Origin: Pontibacter pudoricolor
GTDB taxonomy: Bacteria; Bacteroidota; Bacteroidia; Cytophagales; Hymenobacteraceae
Length of the DNA stretch: 64,000 nt
Assembly (NCBI RefSeq): GCF_010092985.1
Contig: NZ_CP048106.1
Span: 2,604,001-2,668,000 of the forward strand
Direction: 5' to 3'
Each line of letters starts with the position of its first letter. The stretch's first letter is position 1. The notes beneath the pieces were generated by a model. That model was not told where the DNA came from. It made no database searches and saw only the letters and a program-made list of their open reading frames with translations. A program made the position numbers and the translations under genes. This document shows, in pieces, positions 6,691-49,120 of this stretch.

Positions 6691-7093
6691 TTTACCTCAC
6701 CCCAGCCCTCTCCTAAAGACAGGAGAGGGAGTTTTTGGATGCTGTTATATTTGAGGCTACCGTTTTATTGTTGGCGTTTTAACCCTTCCCAGCCTTCCCC
6801 TTTTATCGAGGGCCCCTTCCCCTAAAAACATGGGAAGGAGCTTTCCAGCTGTCGCTATAGTTGAGGCTATCATTTTATAGTTTCTGTTTTAACCCACCCC
6901 TACCCCTCCCAAGAGGGGAATTTTCTGTTGCTATAGTTAGCGTGTAAGTTCTATAGTTTCCGTTTGTCATCCCCCTGCCCCCTTCTAAGGGGGACTTTTC
7001 TGCTACGGCTTTTCAAGATGTCATTTCGACCAGCGGGAGAAATCTGAATTAGCTATAGTCTCCTCTGTAGTTCTATAGTTACAGACCAAGATC

Positions 7094-7178: not shown

Positions 7179-7316
7179 ATCGAACTGATCGCAGTCTTTG
7201 GGTTGAGCGCCTTTGCTTTGTTGCGGTGCCGCCAGGCAACCCGAGGAACGAGGGTAGCAAGAAAGCAGCAGCGCGATGCCCGAAGACGGGGCCTCCCGGC
7301 CATGAGGGCACCAAAG
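7179..7316 (+). repeat. 138-bp structured core of the composite repeat, copy A
   Basis: The core runs from ATCGAAC to CACCAAAG. It is near-identical to 11365-11502 and 40457-40594, all three exactly 138 bp, and to longer copies at 33126-33283 (minus) and 48812-48968. The 5' GTCTTTGGGT can pair with the 3' GCCCGAAGAC, with further stems nested inside (described for copy D). This copy has GCC in place of GTC in the apical loop and GGAAC instead of GGCAC in the inner stem. It may encode an RNA or be a mobile repeat; neither is shown. Confidence 0.92.
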
Positions 7317-7611
7317 TTAACTATAGAACTATAGGTAAGTAGAGCTCCCAGGATTAAAGAAGGCTATAGAAGAAAAGGCTTGGTTCAGGTTGCAACTATA
7401 GTTGACTATAGAACCCAGATTTCTCCTAATGTCGAAATGACAAAAGTGGAAATAGGAGGTTTAAAACACTTTGACTTGGCTCAGGACGACAACATACCGA
7501 AGTTAACAATTGAATTATATACTGAGCGAAAGATCAAAACAACTTACAAAACCAACTATAAATCTGAACCTTATAAAGCCAATGTTCATCTATCAGGCTC
7601 TTAAACTATAG

Positions 7612-11364: not shown

Positions 11365-11502
11365 ATCGACCGGATCACAGTCTTTGGGTTGAGCGACTTT
11401 GCTTTGTTGCGGTGCCGTCAGGCAACCCGAGGTACGAGGGTAGCAAGAAAGCAGCAGCGCGATGCCCGAAGACGAGGCCTCCCGGCCGTGAGGGCACCAA
11501 AG
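11365..11502 (+). repeat. 138-bp structured core, copy B
   Basis: It has the same length and order as copies A and D. GCGAC replaces GCGCC at the second stem. GGTAC replaces GGCAC in the inner stem, which keeps pairing through G-U. The outer GTCTTTGGGT/GCCCGAAGAC pairing is intact. Confidence 0.92.
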
Positions 11503-11699
11503 CCAGATTGAAACGATAGGTAAGTAGAGCTCCCAGGATTGAAGAAGGCTATGGAATAAAAGGCTTCGTTCCAGCTGCAACTATAACCAACTATAGAACT
11601 CAAATTTCTCACGTTGGTCGAAATGACAAAAGAGAAATTATAGGACATTTAAGATCCTTCGGCTGACGCTCAGGATGACACGGGAGAAATATAAAATAA

Positions 11700-32852: not shown

Positions 32853-33125
32853 TAGGTTACTTCCTTTGTTGTCATCCCGAACATCAGCCAAGAGGATGTT
32901 ATACGTCCTATAGTTTTTCTTTTGTCATTTCGAACATTCTTGAAACGCGAGTCGAGAAGAGCCAGCGCAGCTGTGCGGAATCTTATACGTTCTATAGTTT
33001 CTCTTTTGTCATTTCGAACAGCGTGAGAAATCTGAGTGCTATAGCTGCAGTTACAACCTAGCCTTTTCTTTCATAGCTGCTTCTTTAATCCTGGGAGCTC
33101 TACTAACCTATAGTTCTATAGTTGG

Positions 33126-33283
33126 CTTTGGTGCACTCACGGCCGGGAGGCCCCGTCTTGGGGGTAAGGGCCCTCGATAAGGGCATCGCGCTGCTGCTTT
33201 CTTGCTACCCTCGTTCCTCGGGTTGCCTGACGGCACCGCAACAAAGCAAAGGCGCTCAACCCAAAGACTGTGAGCAGTTCGAT
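33126..33283 (-). repeat. Structured core with a 20-nt insert, copy C (158 bp)
   Basis: It is the same as the 138-bp cores except that TTATCGAGGGCCCTTACCCC (minus-strand reading) sits between GATGCCC and AAGAC. It therefore splits the 3' arm of the outer stem. The same insert is present in copy E and, in a different position, in the CCTTCCC module. Confidence 0.9.
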
Positions 33284-38887: not shown

Positions 38888-39144
38888 CCGGCAAAATTAC
38901 GGTTTAAACCCAAGAGTTGAAAATGGCAAAAAACTGGCTTAAACCATGTTGAACTATAACTCCGGTTTCCGTTTACTAAATTTGTAAAAAATGAAGCATA
39001 GCTATACTTAATATTTTGTAAAATGCATCGTTGAGAGTCTTACATCCGGGGCGCTTTTGCGGTGGCATTGGTTGCTCTGGCAATGAGAATTAATTAAAAA
39101 AGAAGGATGTGCGGGGAGTTAATTTCTCTTGCCAACATAATCAC

Positions 39145-39894
39145 ATGAAAAAATCTTTACTATTCTTAAGTTTCGGGATTGCAGTTCTATTATCAGGTTG
39201 CGTATCTACGTACATGCCCAATGTGCCCAATGTGCCCATGTTTACCGAAAAAGGTGAGCTAAGCGCCGGCGGCCACATCACGCCCAAAGGCAACATCACG
39301 TTTAATACCGCCTATGCTGTGTCAGATCATTTTGCGGTCGTACTCAACGGCTCAATGCTCAACAGCGAGCGCCGCAAGCGGGATTTGCGGCATAATTTAT
39401 TAGAGGCTGGCGGTGGCTACTTTACAACTTTTGGCCCGGATGGCAGACGGATACTGGAAGTTTATGCCGGCTATGGCGGTGGCTCCAGCGACCGTACCGA
39501 TAAGGATGAGCACGACGAAACCGGTGCCATGACCTATACCCGCCACGAAGCCAACTTCAGCAAATATTTTGTACAGGTAAACTTTACCTCTAAAAAGAAG
39601 AAGTCGCTGCGCCTGTTCAGCCATGAATTCCCGCTGAACTATGGCACTGCCCTGCGCGCCAGCTACGTTAACATGCACGATTACAAGCTTAACAACGAGC
39701 CAGCAACCGAAGAAGATAATATTTTCCTGGAGCCTATTTTCTACACCCGCCTCACGCTTAACCCATCGGTACAGTTGCAGTACACTACTGGCACTACCTT
39801 CGGCCTTAAAAACCGGGAAACACTTACCGCGGCTTATTCTGTATTTTCAGTAGGGTTTGTGATTAATGTGGGAGGCAGGAATTTAGATAGGTAG
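39145..39894 (+). CDS. Secreted lipoprotein, beta-barrel-like (250 aa)
   Basis: I chose ATG 39145 because it yields a canonical lipoprotein signal (MKKSLLFLSFGIAVLLSGC, C19). An upstream GTG at 39109 would add 12 unlikely residues. After the lipobox a short tandem PNVPNVPM repeat is encoded by repeated CCCAATGTG. The rest alternates beta strands (for example TFNTAYAVSDHFAVVLNGSML and EVYAGYGGGSSDR), resembling a porin-like or membrane-associated barrel. I do not recognise a family. Confidence 0.65.
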   Translation: MKKSLLFLSFGIAVLLSGCVSTYMPNVPNVPMFTEKGELSAGGHITPKGNITFNTAYAVSDHFAVVLNGSMLNSERRKRDLRHNLLEAGGGYFTTFGPDGRRILEVYAGYGGGSSDRTDKDEHDETGAMTYTRHEANFSKYFVQVNFTSKKKKSLRLFSHEFPLNYGTALRASYVNMHDYKLNNEPATEEDNIFLEPIFYTRLTLNPSVQLQYTTGTTFGLKNRETLTAAYSVFSVGFVINVGGRNLDR

Positions 39895-40373
39895 AGTTAT
39901 AAGATTAAGTCCGTCACTCTCTTGAGGGGAATTTCAGTTGTTGCTATAGTTAAGGTTGTAGTTCTATAGTTGGCGTAATCTCCTGAAGCCCTCAGCGCTA
40001 CGCTCGCTACCTGCGGAATTGCTTCCCGGTAGTCTGAGGCGGGGAGGTTTTGGCTTTTGCTATAGTTTGGGCTATCGTTTTACCCCTTCCCAGCCTTCCC
40101 CTTTTATCGAGGGCCCCTACCCCCAAAACAGGGGAAGGAGCTTTACAGCCTTTGCTATAGTTGAGGTTATCGTTTTATCGCTGCTGTTTTAACCCACCCC
40201 TGCCCCTCCCGGGAGGGGAATTTCGGCTATAGTTAGAGCTTAGCTATAGTTCTATAGTTTCCGTTTGTCATCCCCCTGCCCCCTTCAAAGGGGGACTTTT
40301 CTGCTACGGCTTATCCATCTGTCATTTCGACGTTAGGAGAAATCTGAGTTTTCTATAGTTACAGCCTAAGATA

Positions 40374-40391
40374 GGACAGGTTTACCTGTCC
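40374..40391. repeat. 18-nt palindrome variant, copy D
   Basis: GGACAGGTTTACCTGTCC keeps the GGACAGGT/ACCTGTCC arms of the 20-nt palindromes but replaces the centre with TT. Copy E (48738-48755) is identical. Confidence 0.92.
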
Positions 40392-40456
40392 CTACGGAAC
40401 TACAACCACGATAAAGCGATGCAACTATAGCCGCTCTGATCAACTATAGTTTTACT

Positions 40457-40594
40457 ATCGAACGGATCGCAGTCTTTGGGTTGAGCGCCTTTGCTTTGTT
40501 GCGGTGCCGTCAGGCAACCCGAGGCACGAGGGTAGCAAGAAAGCAGCAGCGCGATGCCCGAAGACGGGGCCTCCCGGCCGTGAGGGCACCAAAG
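40457..40594 (+). repeat. 138-bp structured core, copy D (reference for the folding)
   Basis: Nested pairings can be read directly. The outer stem is 40472-40481 with 40556-40565 (10 bp, two G-U). Then 40485-40488 pairs with 40549-40552 (GCGC/GCGC), 40493-40502 with 40535-40544 (10 bp, one mismatch), and 40504-40508 with 40523-40527 (GTGCC/GGCAC). The apical loop is 40509-40522, and a trailing GGCC-TCCC-GGCC hairpin follows. G-U pairs work only if this strand is the RNA. Whether it is transcribed is unknown. Confidence 0.9.
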
Positions 40595-40910
40595 CTGGAA
40601 ATGAAACGATAGGCAAGTAGAGCTCCCAGGATTAAAAGTAGCTATAGAAGAAAAGGCTAGGTTCAGGTAGTAGTGTTTCAAACTATAGAATTCAGATTTC
40701 TCACTTTGTTCGAAATGACAAAAGAGAAAGAACTATAGGACATATAAGCTACTTCACAACTACACTGGCTCTTCTCGACTCGCGTCTCAAGAATGTTCGA
40801 AATGACAAAAGGGAAACTATAAAACAGATAAGTAAACTATAGCCCAAATGTTAGCAGAAACTGCACACTACCAAGTCTAAATCAAATCAATAAACCAACA
40901 ATACATTACA

Positions 40911-41318
40911 TTACACTGGAATCTCCCCTAACCAGTCGGCAGCTTCTTTATAGGTTATAAATTGCCTTACTTGTATGTTACCGATGTAAATTGGTTCGGC
41001 GCGTTTTACGAACTGTTCAAACTTGGCATGGCTTCCGGTATCTTCACCGGCTATGCGGGCCAGCTTTAACAGGTTTGTACCTGCTATAGTTGGAATCAAC
41101 TCCTGAAGGGTCCATCGCTCATCCTCCTGCGAGATATCACCCAGTTTAGACGAATCTGCAATCCAGTTTTGTATGTCTTTTTCGCGCAGCTGCTCGATCA
41201 ATAAATTATTGCCTTCTCTGTATTCTTCGCTAGTTACAGGGCGCAGCCAGTCGCTGTACATCAGGTGTATAGTTTCATCTACCCAAAGCAGAAGATAGTT
41301 ATTTTCGAATTCGAACAT
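40911..41318 (-). CDS. Hypothetical protein (135 aa), STAS/SpoIIAA-like
   Basis: This 135-residue soluble acidic protein reads as alternating strands and helices (YLLLWVDETIHLMYSDWLRPVTSEEYREG and IQNWIADSSKLGDISQEDERWTLQEL), reminiscent of the STAS/SEC14-like proteins seen in Bacteroidetes. It has no signal peptide. It is convergent with the lipoprotein gene across composite repeat D. The next gene on this strand is at 41441. Function unknown. Confidence 0.65.
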   Translation of the reverse strand: MFEFENNYLLLWVDETIHLMYSDWLRPVTSEEYREGNNLLIEQLREKDIQNWIADSSKLGDISQEDERWTLQELIPTIAGTNLLKLARIAGEDTGSHAKFEQFVKRAEPIYIGNIQVRQFITYKEAADWLGEIPV

Positions 41319-41440
41319 GCTACCGCCAGTTATTGAAAGCCTAATGTAATAATATTCCTATCACTCTAAAGCCTTTTATGAATTATGCAGAGCAGCATGT
41401 AAGGTAAGTTGCCTGGCCAGGTAAAAGCAACTTATAAGAT

Positions 41441-41779
41441 CTAAGCCACTGCCAGGTGATCCTTGAGCGGCTTGTTTTCGCGGCAGTTCAGCAGCATATC
41501 CATAACAGCCGGATTTATACCGTATTTACGGTGGTCTGATTCCAACTCGCACCAGGTTGTGAAAATGCGCCACATTGGCTCTTTACCGAAACCACTGCTT
41601 TCGGCAGGAGTAATACTGCGCTGGAAAAAAGCATGCAACTGCACATCTTCTTCAGGAACCGGAATATAAATAGTATCTGAAGCGCAATTAAGCACTGCTA
41701 TTACTTCGGCAGACTTGCCGTTTAGTGAGGGCAGGTAAAAATAACAAACCTGCGGAAGCTGGTAAGGGTGATGTAGCAT
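41441..41779 (-). CDS. Hypothetical protein (112 aa)
   Basis: I do not recognise a family. This 112-residue soluble protein contains ICYFYLP-like strands (PQVCYFYLPSLNGKSAEVIAVLNCASDTIYIPV, about residues 9-41) and PMWRIFTTWCELESDHRKYGINPAVMDMLL near the C-terminus. There is no signal peptide. It lies 122 bp from the 40911 gene on the same strand, so co-transcription is plausible. The 302-bp gap to the bacilliredoxin gene is A/T-rich and holds only the bacilliredoxin promoter candidate. Confidence 0.6.
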   Translation of the reverse strand: MLHHPYQLPQVCYFYLPSLNGKSAEVIAVLNCASDTIYIPVPEEDVQLHAFFQRSITPAESSGFGKEPMWRIFTTWCELESDHRKYGINPAVMDMLLNCRENKPLKDHLAVA

Positions 41780-42040
41780 AAATCTGGTTGTATAATTAGC
41801 GCCCTAAATCCTTCTCCTGCCATAGCCAAAAATTTTATGGTTTAATCCAAAAAACTACCGGCCAACCCAAAGACGTTTATCACATACAACCATATACTTA
41901 CGACTATAAAAAGAGTTTTACACTACTTATATATTCAGAAAACAATGCAATTTTTTATAGTTCGCACAATACAATATTTTAAAATCTTGCCAGATATAAA
42001 CTGGTGATATAGATCATCTTCGCATCTGCTAATTATTTTG

Positions 42041-42048
42041 TAAATTTG
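42041..42048 (+). promoter_or_regulatory. Candidate -7 box of the bacilliredoxin gene
   Basis: TAAATTTG fits TAnnTTTG and lies 33 nt before the start codon. The -33 element is unclear. Confidence 0.55.
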
Positions 42049-42081
42049 CAGTAGTAGTTTTAATCTTAATTAAGAACGATT

Positions 42082-42504
42082 ATGGGAATGTATCCTGAAT
42101 ATATGGTTGCACCTATCCGTGAGGATCTAACCTCAGCTGGATTTGAACAACTAATGACTCCTGAAGAAGTAGAGCAGGCGCTTTCTGCTAAAGAAGGAAC
42201 TGTATTAGTGGCTATAAACTCTGTTTGTGGTTGCGCGGCATCTAAGGCGCGTCCTGCCCTTAAAATGGCTGTAGCATCTGCTGACCAGAAGCCAGATAAA
42301 ATGATCACAGTATTTGCAGGCATGGAAGCTGATGCAGTTGCGAAAGCACGTGAGTATATGCTGCCTTACCCTCCGTCATCACCATCTATAGCGCTGTTTA
42401 AAAATGGCGAGCTGGTACACATGATCGAGCGTTACCACATTGAAGGCAATGAACTTAACCGCATTGTAGATAACCTGAAAGGTGCTTTTGAGGCGTACTG
42501 CTAA
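42082..42504 (+). CDS. Bacilliredoxin (BrxA/BrxB family)
   Basis: This 140-residue YphP/YqiW-family protein removes bacillithiol from mixed disulfides. The CGC motif (C49-G-C51 in NSVCGCAASKARPAL) is present. The family stretch MYPEYMVAPIREDLTSAGFEQL starts the protein, followed by FAGMEADAVAKAREY. It implies a bacillithiol-type thiol system in this organism, an inference from the family. It has its own -7 candidate and shares a bidirectional terminator with purD. Confidence 0.95.
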   Translation: MGMYPEYMVAPIREDLTSAGFEQLMTPEEVEQALSAKEGTVLVAINSVCGCAASKARPALKMAVASADQKPDKMITVFAGMEADAVAKAREYMLPYPPSSPSIALFKNGELVHMIERYHIEGNELNRIVDNLKGAFEAYC

Positions 42505-48811: not shown

Positions 48812-48968
48812 ATCGAACAGATCGCAGTCTTTGGGTTGAGCGCCTTTGCTTTGTTGCGGTGCCGCCAGGCAACCCGAGGCACGAGGGTAGCAAGAAAGCA
48901 GCAGCGCGATGCCCTTATCGAGGGCCCCTACCCCCAAGACAGAGCCTCCCGGCCGTGGGGCATCAAAG
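48812..48968 (+). repeat. Structured core with a 20-nt insert, copy E (157 bp)
   Basis: The insert TTATCGAGGGCCCCTACCCC lies between GATGCCC and AAGAC as in copy C, splitting the outer stem of the predicted fold. The 3' end reads GTGGGGCATCAAAG, diverging from GTGAGGGCACCAAAG elsewhere. Confidence 0.88.
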
Positions 48969-49120
48969 CAAGATTGAAACTATAGGTGAGTAAAGCTCCC
49001 AGGATTAGAAGTGGCTATGAAAGAAAAGACTAGGTTCAAGGAGTAGAAAATCAAACTATAGAACCCAGATTTCTCACGCTGTTCAAAATGACAAAAGAGA
49101 AACTATAGAACTTGGCTTAA

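Follow-up and report, generated by a model that had tools for sequence, protein, structure and literature searches.

The question raised by this locus is what kind of element is repeated between the genes of Pontibacter pudoricolor: a structured RNA of a kind not described before, a hairpin of the REP or MITE type, or something that shares features of both. The preliminary description of the window (the whole stretch of DNA that was analysed, 64,000 nucleotides long) had assigned to positions 40457-40594 a core of 138 bp folding into one long nested hairpin, with G-U support on one strand, and had proposed a covariation test and a search of Rfam as checks. A covariance model (R1; 131 positions, nested structure with the pseudoknot left out) places the structured-RNA core at 40468-40595 on the plus strand (128 nt, 146.2 bits) and finds five copies in the window. 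The second copy (7190-7317, plus strand, 144.7 bits) lies between a desaturase-like gene and rpsP-like, rimM-like and trmD-like genes, all named by eye, and the third (11376-11503, plus strand) scores 140.1 bits. The fourth (33125-33272, minus strand, 103.0 bits) and the fifth (48823-48969, plus strand, 92.5 bits) are both interrupted at one position in the outer stem, where the 3' strand of helix P1 is split by an insert of about 21 bp in the former and by a nearly identical one in the latter. The reverse strand of the focal copy gives a sixth match, which is weak (21.7 bits).

Each of the five copies is preceded, at a distance of 85-96 bp from start to start, by a palindromic module (40374-40401, plus strand, at the focal copy). 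No such module was seen by eye in the printed flanks from Rufibacter, g24 and g27, and it was therefore left out of the definition of the RNA. A conserved 3' tail motif, AGAGCTCCCAGGATTA (40619-40634, plus strand, at the focal copy), follows four of the five. Another repeat, about 20 bp long, is scattered over the window (TTATCGAGGGCCCCTACCCCC or its reverse; pattern matches at 6803, 33596, 40104, 48501 and 48915). It occurs at differing sites inside several RNA copies of this and other Pontibacter genomes, in the window in those at 33125-33272 and 48823-48969, and, carrying GTAG on one strand, may be a REP. The hexamer CTATAG is found 135 times in the 64 kb, against about 18 occurrences expected from base composition.

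Folded on its own, the focal sequence is only modestly better than chance (z of -2.41 with 4 of 200 shuffles as good for the plus strand; z of -2.15 with 6 of 200 for the minus strand), so that the evidence for a structure has to come from comparison. The comparison of copies establishes a plus-strand fold of about 130 nt, in which an outer stem is followed by a TGA/GAT internal loop, a variable arm and a pair of terminal hairpins, and in which a further hairpin on the 3' side is engaged in a pseudoknot (all coordinates of helices given below are on the plus strand). In the outer stem P1, GTCTTTGGGT (40472-40481) pairs with GCCCGAAGAC (40556-40565) in 95.7% of cells over 105 copies; this stem, including its two G-U pairs, is present as originally described and exhibits compensatory change across species. 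The same holds for P2, in which GCGC (40485-40488) pairs with GCGC (40549-40552) in 99.3% of cells, and which is separated from P1 by the TGA/GAT loop; by eye, P2 types GGGC/GCCC occur in genome G224. The variable arm P3 (40491-40502 with 40535-40546), recognized earlier as the arm GCTTTGTTGC/GCAAGAAAGC, is likewise accompanied by compensatory change across species, with weak middle positions. It is the weakest of the helices: double changes occur at all 12 of its pairs, yet pairing is found in only 78.5% of cells and falls near or below 50-70% in four of the 12. The arm has been rewritten several times across the family, with the pairing largely retained.

The fourth helix of the original scheme, the inner stem GTGCC/GGCAC, has to be abandoned, because one side varies while the other is kept and the pairing stays at the shuffled level (74.0% of cells against 73.8% with shuffled partners, in 29 sequences). 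Among 40 copies from the P. pudoricolor genome, GTGCC is found in 37, and the loop letters on the GGCAC side read GTAC in 11, GCAC in 9, GAAC in 4, GGAC in 4 and otherwise in 12. The place of this stem is taken by the hairpin P4, TGCC-loop-GGCA (40505-40516; 98.8% of cells paired), of which longer forms, TGCCC/GGGCA and TGCCGC/GCGGCA, were seen by eye. P4 was missing from the preliminary description, and so were the hairpin P5, ACCC-loop-GGGT (40517-40533; 96.4% paired), with three of its four pairs significant in the covariation test; the 3' hairpin P6, GGCC-TCCC-GGCC (40568-40579; 97.3% paired), whose second pair has changed from GC to CG in 28 of the 103 copies with letters there; and the pseudoknot (40573-40586), formed by CCC in the P6 loop (40573-40575) and GGG at 40584-40586. 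The middle pair of the pseudoknot is C-G in 45 copies, G-C in 26, U-A in 24, U-G in one and something else in three (n=99). Hence, the core is branched and pseudoknotted rather than one long nested hairpin.

Standard pairs fill 93.6% of the paired cells in a seed alignment of 29 copies, compared to 86.1% with shuffled partners and to 38.6-42.5% with partners slid by 1-3 columns. The slid control, here and in the larger set, favors P3-P5 and the pseudoknot, as these parts had been set manually on the basis of the very sequences compared. The covariation score of the seed is 0.240 versus 0.113. The larger set of 105 copies, obtained from 100 of 120 contig stretches fetched by pattern, yields standard pairs in 92.1% of paired cells versus 78.6% after shuffling, in an alignment that was fitted to the nested structure of R1 and thus favors its helices, the pseudoknot not having been used in the fitting. 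In this set, changes on both sides occur at 31 of the 41 pairs, and the covariation score rises to 0.317 versus 0.109. RNAalifold, applied to a MAFFT alignment of 50 sequences, recovered P1, P2 and P6 alone (18 pairs, four of them with double changes). For the proposed covariation test, a procedure was written along the lines of R-scape, with an APC-corrected G statistic and a null of 40 simulations based on the tree. The structure emerged well from it: six of the eight column pairs with E<0.05 against the 40 simulated null alignments fall within it, the pseudoknot pair scoring highest of all in this phylogeny-aware comparison, and the two further significant pairs (columns 48-60 and 104-113) are located within the regions of the hairpins P4 and P5. 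A closing helix of the 5' leader with the 3' tail was rejected, since their complementarity reveals no copy-specific excess (6.11 within and 6.05 between copies, n=102). Over the 41 pairs of the 105 copies, G-T cells outnumber A-C cells by 257 to 25, which marks the plus strand as the constrained one and agrees with the early remark on one-strand G-U support.

A search of Rfam (release 15), the other proposed check, returned nothing at E<=1 in 38900-42100, and five matches in six divergent loci, all of them under the gathering score; the best is to a plant-type miRNA model (E=4e-4, 35.6 of 230 bits) and spans the inverted pair of one locus (L298). Among the open-licence articles listed by the literature searches (e.g. 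the best 10 of 192 matches) none dealt with this repeat or with a structured RNA from Pontibacter, and a term search of PMC11109978 gave no occurrence. Strong support for the suggestion of an undescribed structured RNA comes from the covariation, which extends to the pseudoknot, from the one-strand G-U tolerance and from the lack of any Rfam match at threshold. We are apparently dealing with an RNA-like pseudoknotted element without a described counterpart.

How widely is this element distributed? In the P. pudoricolor genome, the best 40 of 135 BLAST candidates were scored and all 40 match at 94-100%, while the covariance model detects at least 68 copies. Within the genus, 43 of 50 genomes carry copies. 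An order-level sample yielded them in 33 of 390 genomes, representing 7 of 129 genera (with G312 borderline, E=9e-4), and a phylum-level sample in 3 of 395 genomes, including one (G790) from another order, the filters of the two last searches being stricter, at the cost of weak matches. Apart from Pontibacter, the range of the element thus includes Rufibacter, a small number of further genera in the same order and a single genome from a different one. Of 80 matches listed by a pattern scan of the genome collection, 70 are from Pontibacter, three from Rufibacter and seven from unrelated genomes; these seven were taken as chance (best score 13.9 bits, three without any model match), as was the single pattern match among viral contigs (11.9 bits), and 72,556 plasmid records gave no match. 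Within Pontibacter, a clade of 10 genomes (in a 31-genome tree based on one locus) possesses 0-1 copies per genome and comprises all seven zero-copy genomes. In genome G224 (L298-L303), RNA copies can form divergent pairs 150-290 bp apart, with their 5' ends inward.

The element is present in some genomes and absent from others at orthologous sites, namely the rpsP-like locus and a locus shared by G104 and its congener. At the rpsP-like locus a match was found in 10 of 31 genomes; six of these score more than 110 bits, the others only 72, 63, 44 and 26 bits. With a match, the spacer spans 657-1042 bp in eight genomes and 366 bp in one, and is unmeasured in one; without a match, it spans 170-295 bp in 13 genomes and 429-903 bp in seven, and is unmeasured in one, so that spacer length alone proves nothing, as seven of the 21 RNA-less genomes also have long spacers. 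The orthologous spacer in the operon measures about 245 nt in G104 and about 110 nt in the congener, where no such stretch is seen by eye. The protein adjoining the focal copy has a close orthologue (66-95% identity) in 4 of 21 genomes searched; the RNA lies beside it in three of the four, cut in one case by the end of the contig, and in the fourth the adjoining DNA differs and has no RNA match. Presence and absence at the rpsP-like locus, the shorter spacer in the congener of G104, the copy-poor clade and the two broken copies of the window all count in favor of an element that is mobile and, at given loci, dispensable.

Eight of 28 copies from P. populi share both flanks with one of 42 copies from P. 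pudoricolor, which permits a comparison of copies within and between genomes. Identity of the cores is 94.4% for orthologous pairs, 94.0% for non-orthologous pairs between the species, 92.7% among the P. populi copies of the set and 96.2% among those of P. pudoricolor, the last value being biased upward, as 30 of the 42 copies are the best BLAST matches to the window copy; for the 100 bp upstream, the corresponding values are 68.7, 66.5, 66.9 and 79.5%. Copies that are more alike than orthologues bear the mark of concerted evolution, which is found in the P. pudoricolor genome only; the P. populi copies show otherwise, as they are less similar among themselves (92.2%) than in pairs with P. pudoricolor (93.3%).

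We favor the reading, with a probability of roughly 55%, that the focal site is a copy of a dispersed, non-autonomous mobile intergenic element, the conserved part of which is the plus-strand fold, and that the shape is kept via recognition of the fold in trans. According to this scenario, the element would be read as RNA through co-transcription from neighboring genes, as suggested by the lack of a detectable promoter of its own; a trans-acting factor would recognize the fold, and this recognition would both spread the copies and homogenize them. The structure would be kept mainly because well-folded copies alone serve as sources, and any effects on neighboring mRNAs, of the kind proposed for ERIC and NEMIS, would arise incidentally.

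On the other hand, the orthologous cores are about 94% identical while the adjacent intergenic DNA is only 69-71% identical, and this far better conservation of the core could reflect a host function of each copy and count against the mobile reading. It would be expected of a host-useful cis element, i.e. a 3'-UTR or intercistronic RNA that tunes the processing or stability of the neighboring mRNA and in which each copy is selected, as with ERIC in Yersinia, an explanation that we regard as unlikely on the balance of the following data. The neighbors of 143 copies (including eight from the low-copy genomes G104 and G312) are convergent in 56 cases, both in the direction of the RNA in 36, both opposite in 20 and divergent in 17, with a neighbor missing in 14. 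The prevalence of sense over antisense copies in co-directional spacers, 36 to 20, is a weak bias (p=0.044) in the direction expected for cis action, whereas the location of 56 of the 129 copies with both neighbors known, between convergent genes, counts against it. In G104, five of the seven copies examined (nine were found) have the sense orientation and occupy short spacers that separate same-strand genes of apparent operons, 34-63 nt past the stop and 22-103 nt ahead of the next start (the flanking pairs include, according to Pfam, TonB-receptor/SusD-like, molybdopterin/FAD dehydrogenase and ABC binding-protein/permease), but in g27 the bias is the opposite, with one sense and four antisense copies among seven examined. 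Moreover, the near-complete loss of the element in the clade of 10 genomes and its degraded copies at the rpsP-like locus speak against selection on every copy.

The genes around the copies do not point to a common partner. No nearest-ORF cluster with more than four members was found around the 143 copies, and an autonomous partner in cis was rejected, given that the largest clusters have four members and several of them are orthologous loci; ORFs of 94-123 aa that overlap some copies were taken as spurious. A riboswitch or leader was rejected as well, the neighbors being unrelated save for clusters of few members and for two GH109-like genes (g11 and G790); in low-copy genomes the neighbors are ordinary genes of metabolism, transport or regulation. 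Genus g11 includes three genomes (L152, L153, L277) in which the single copy is located in sense upstream of seemingly the same gene, Gfo/Idh GH109-like where tested. The strand of the copies exhibits no clear association with GC skew by eye, i.e. no preference with respect to replication.

The compact conserved fold would also suit a trans-acting small RNA, 6S- or sponge-like, that was amplified to many copies, and the six divergent pairs examined in G224, each of which joins two different P2 types by eye, would find a place in such a scheme. Nonetheless, we consider it very improbable: no box of the Bacteroidota type (TAnnTTTG) occurs in the 200 nt preceding 42 P. pudoricolor and 28 P. populi copies, a T5 run follows within 140 nt downstream in only one of the 42, and a whole clade of the genus does nearly without the element.

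If the element is mobile, what moves it? In the P. pudoricolor and P. populi sets, a search for terminal inverted repeats (TIRs) and TSDs gave same-copy repeat scores that are not above the cross-copy ones. A mixed-species set gave a small same-copy excess (direct 9.11 versus 8.65, inverted 9.92 versus 9.32), which species-specific flanks can explain, as the cross pairs mix species, and direct repeats seen by eye at the ends of Pontibacter copies were dismissed as not copy-specific. In G790, one copy is located by eye between 16-bp inverted repeats with a possible 7-bp TSD. Two short weak matches to these repeats, one inverted and one direct, are found without the RNA in the same genome (G790:C9:159-252), and the repeats may therefore belong to another element. 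Since the surroundings of the copies yielded neither a transposase partner nor a copy-specific TIR or TSD, we infer movement from presence and absence only.

The candidate mover that comes to mind is RAYT, five genes for RAYT-like Y1 proteins (L059-L063) being present in the P. pudoricolor genome. Across the 50 Pontibacter genomes, Y1_Tnp genes occur in 43 (41 genomes have both Y1 and the RNA, two the RNA only, two Y1 only and five neither), and their counts follow those of the RNA with a Spearman coefficient of 0.66 (RNA counts of at least 68 entered as 68), a correlation among genomes that are not independent, as the RNA-poor ones are one clade of 10 plus G002. No R1 match at E<=1 lies within 1.5 kb of the five P. 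pudoricolor Y1 genes, and four of them have other short palindromes on both sides, as judged by eye. RAYT was thus rejected as the mover, the RNA-poor genomes belonging mainly to one clade and the Y1 flanks being devoid of copies. The same data bear on a DNA-level element, a giant REP-like repeat whose single-stranded fold is recognized by a HUH (Y1) transposase. Such an element would accommodate the correlation, with the reservation just stated, and also the one-strand G-T tolerance, which fits ssDNA as well as RNA, yet the absence of copies from the Y1 flanks counts against it. H-type pseudoknots and GNRA-type loops are more typical of RNA, and their presence in the element suggests that the folded molecule would be RNA rather than ssDNA. 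We consider the DNA-level explanation improbable.

The REP class itself does not fit. REPs are palindromes of 20-40 bp tagged with GTAG or CGTC, those of the GTAG type being usually located beside a RAYT gene, whereas the Pontibacter core is branched and 128-131 nt long, lacks a terminal tag by eye, and has no copy near the Y1 genes. What remains of the likeness is the high copy number and the gene placement, REP elements being found mostly between convergent or co-directional genes according to the relevant part of PMC3733652, as well as the presence of RAYT-like genes in the genome. With regard to MITEs, the element is short, multi-copy, intergenic and without a protein gene, and it is present in some genomes and absent from others at orthologous sites, but a classical MITE finds no support within single genomes, where no copy-specific TIR or TSD signal was detected. 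Therefore, the REP/MITE label of the preliminary description stands only loosely, in the sense of a dispersed non-autonomous intergenic element.

Among other known repeats, ERIC (IRU, RU-1) and NEMIS (Correia) elements are characterized, in the part of PMC2229807 that deals with them, by TIRs, TSDs and long stem loops. The Pontibacter element has in common with them, as far as that part describes them, a size of about 100-200 bp, dispersed intergenic location, a transcript with a predicted fold and proposed effects on neighboring mRNAs (PMC2229807); it differs in that no copy-specific TIR or TSD was detected and in its branched fold with a covarying pseudoknot. CIR from Caulobacter and Brucella is presented in the corresponding part of the same article as a phylogenetically conserved two-arm RNA structure with no TIR, in which the linked arms bear a GANTC motif (PMC2229807). 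This makes CIR similar in having a conserved RNA structure and no TIR, and the difference, as judged from the description, lies in its linked GANTC arms. HEARO RNA (the omega RNA of IscB) is another multi-copy structured RNA, some copies of which lack a protein gene; unlike HEARO, the Pontibacter element has no Rfam match at threshold, no recurrent neighbor protein and, by eye in the P. pudoricolor copies, no guide-like hypervariable segment.

In the literature, small repeats between bacterial genes figure mostly as stem loops that have terminal inverted repeats. The Pontibacter element has a branched RNA-like fold with a pseudoknot, which compensatory changes have preserved in dozens of copies per genome and which is found in at least two orders of a single class. 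One may speculate that it is a bacterial counterpart of SINEs: an enzyme supplied in trans would copy the structured RNA by way of an RNA intermediate, inserting new copies as well as overwriting old ones. We regard this as a long shot, but if it were true, dispersed copies would show concerted evolution, the whole set drifting together within each species. Related Pontibacter genomes with zero, few or at least 68 copies would provide a system for asking whether such repeats are maintained by their own spread or by selection for use to the host.
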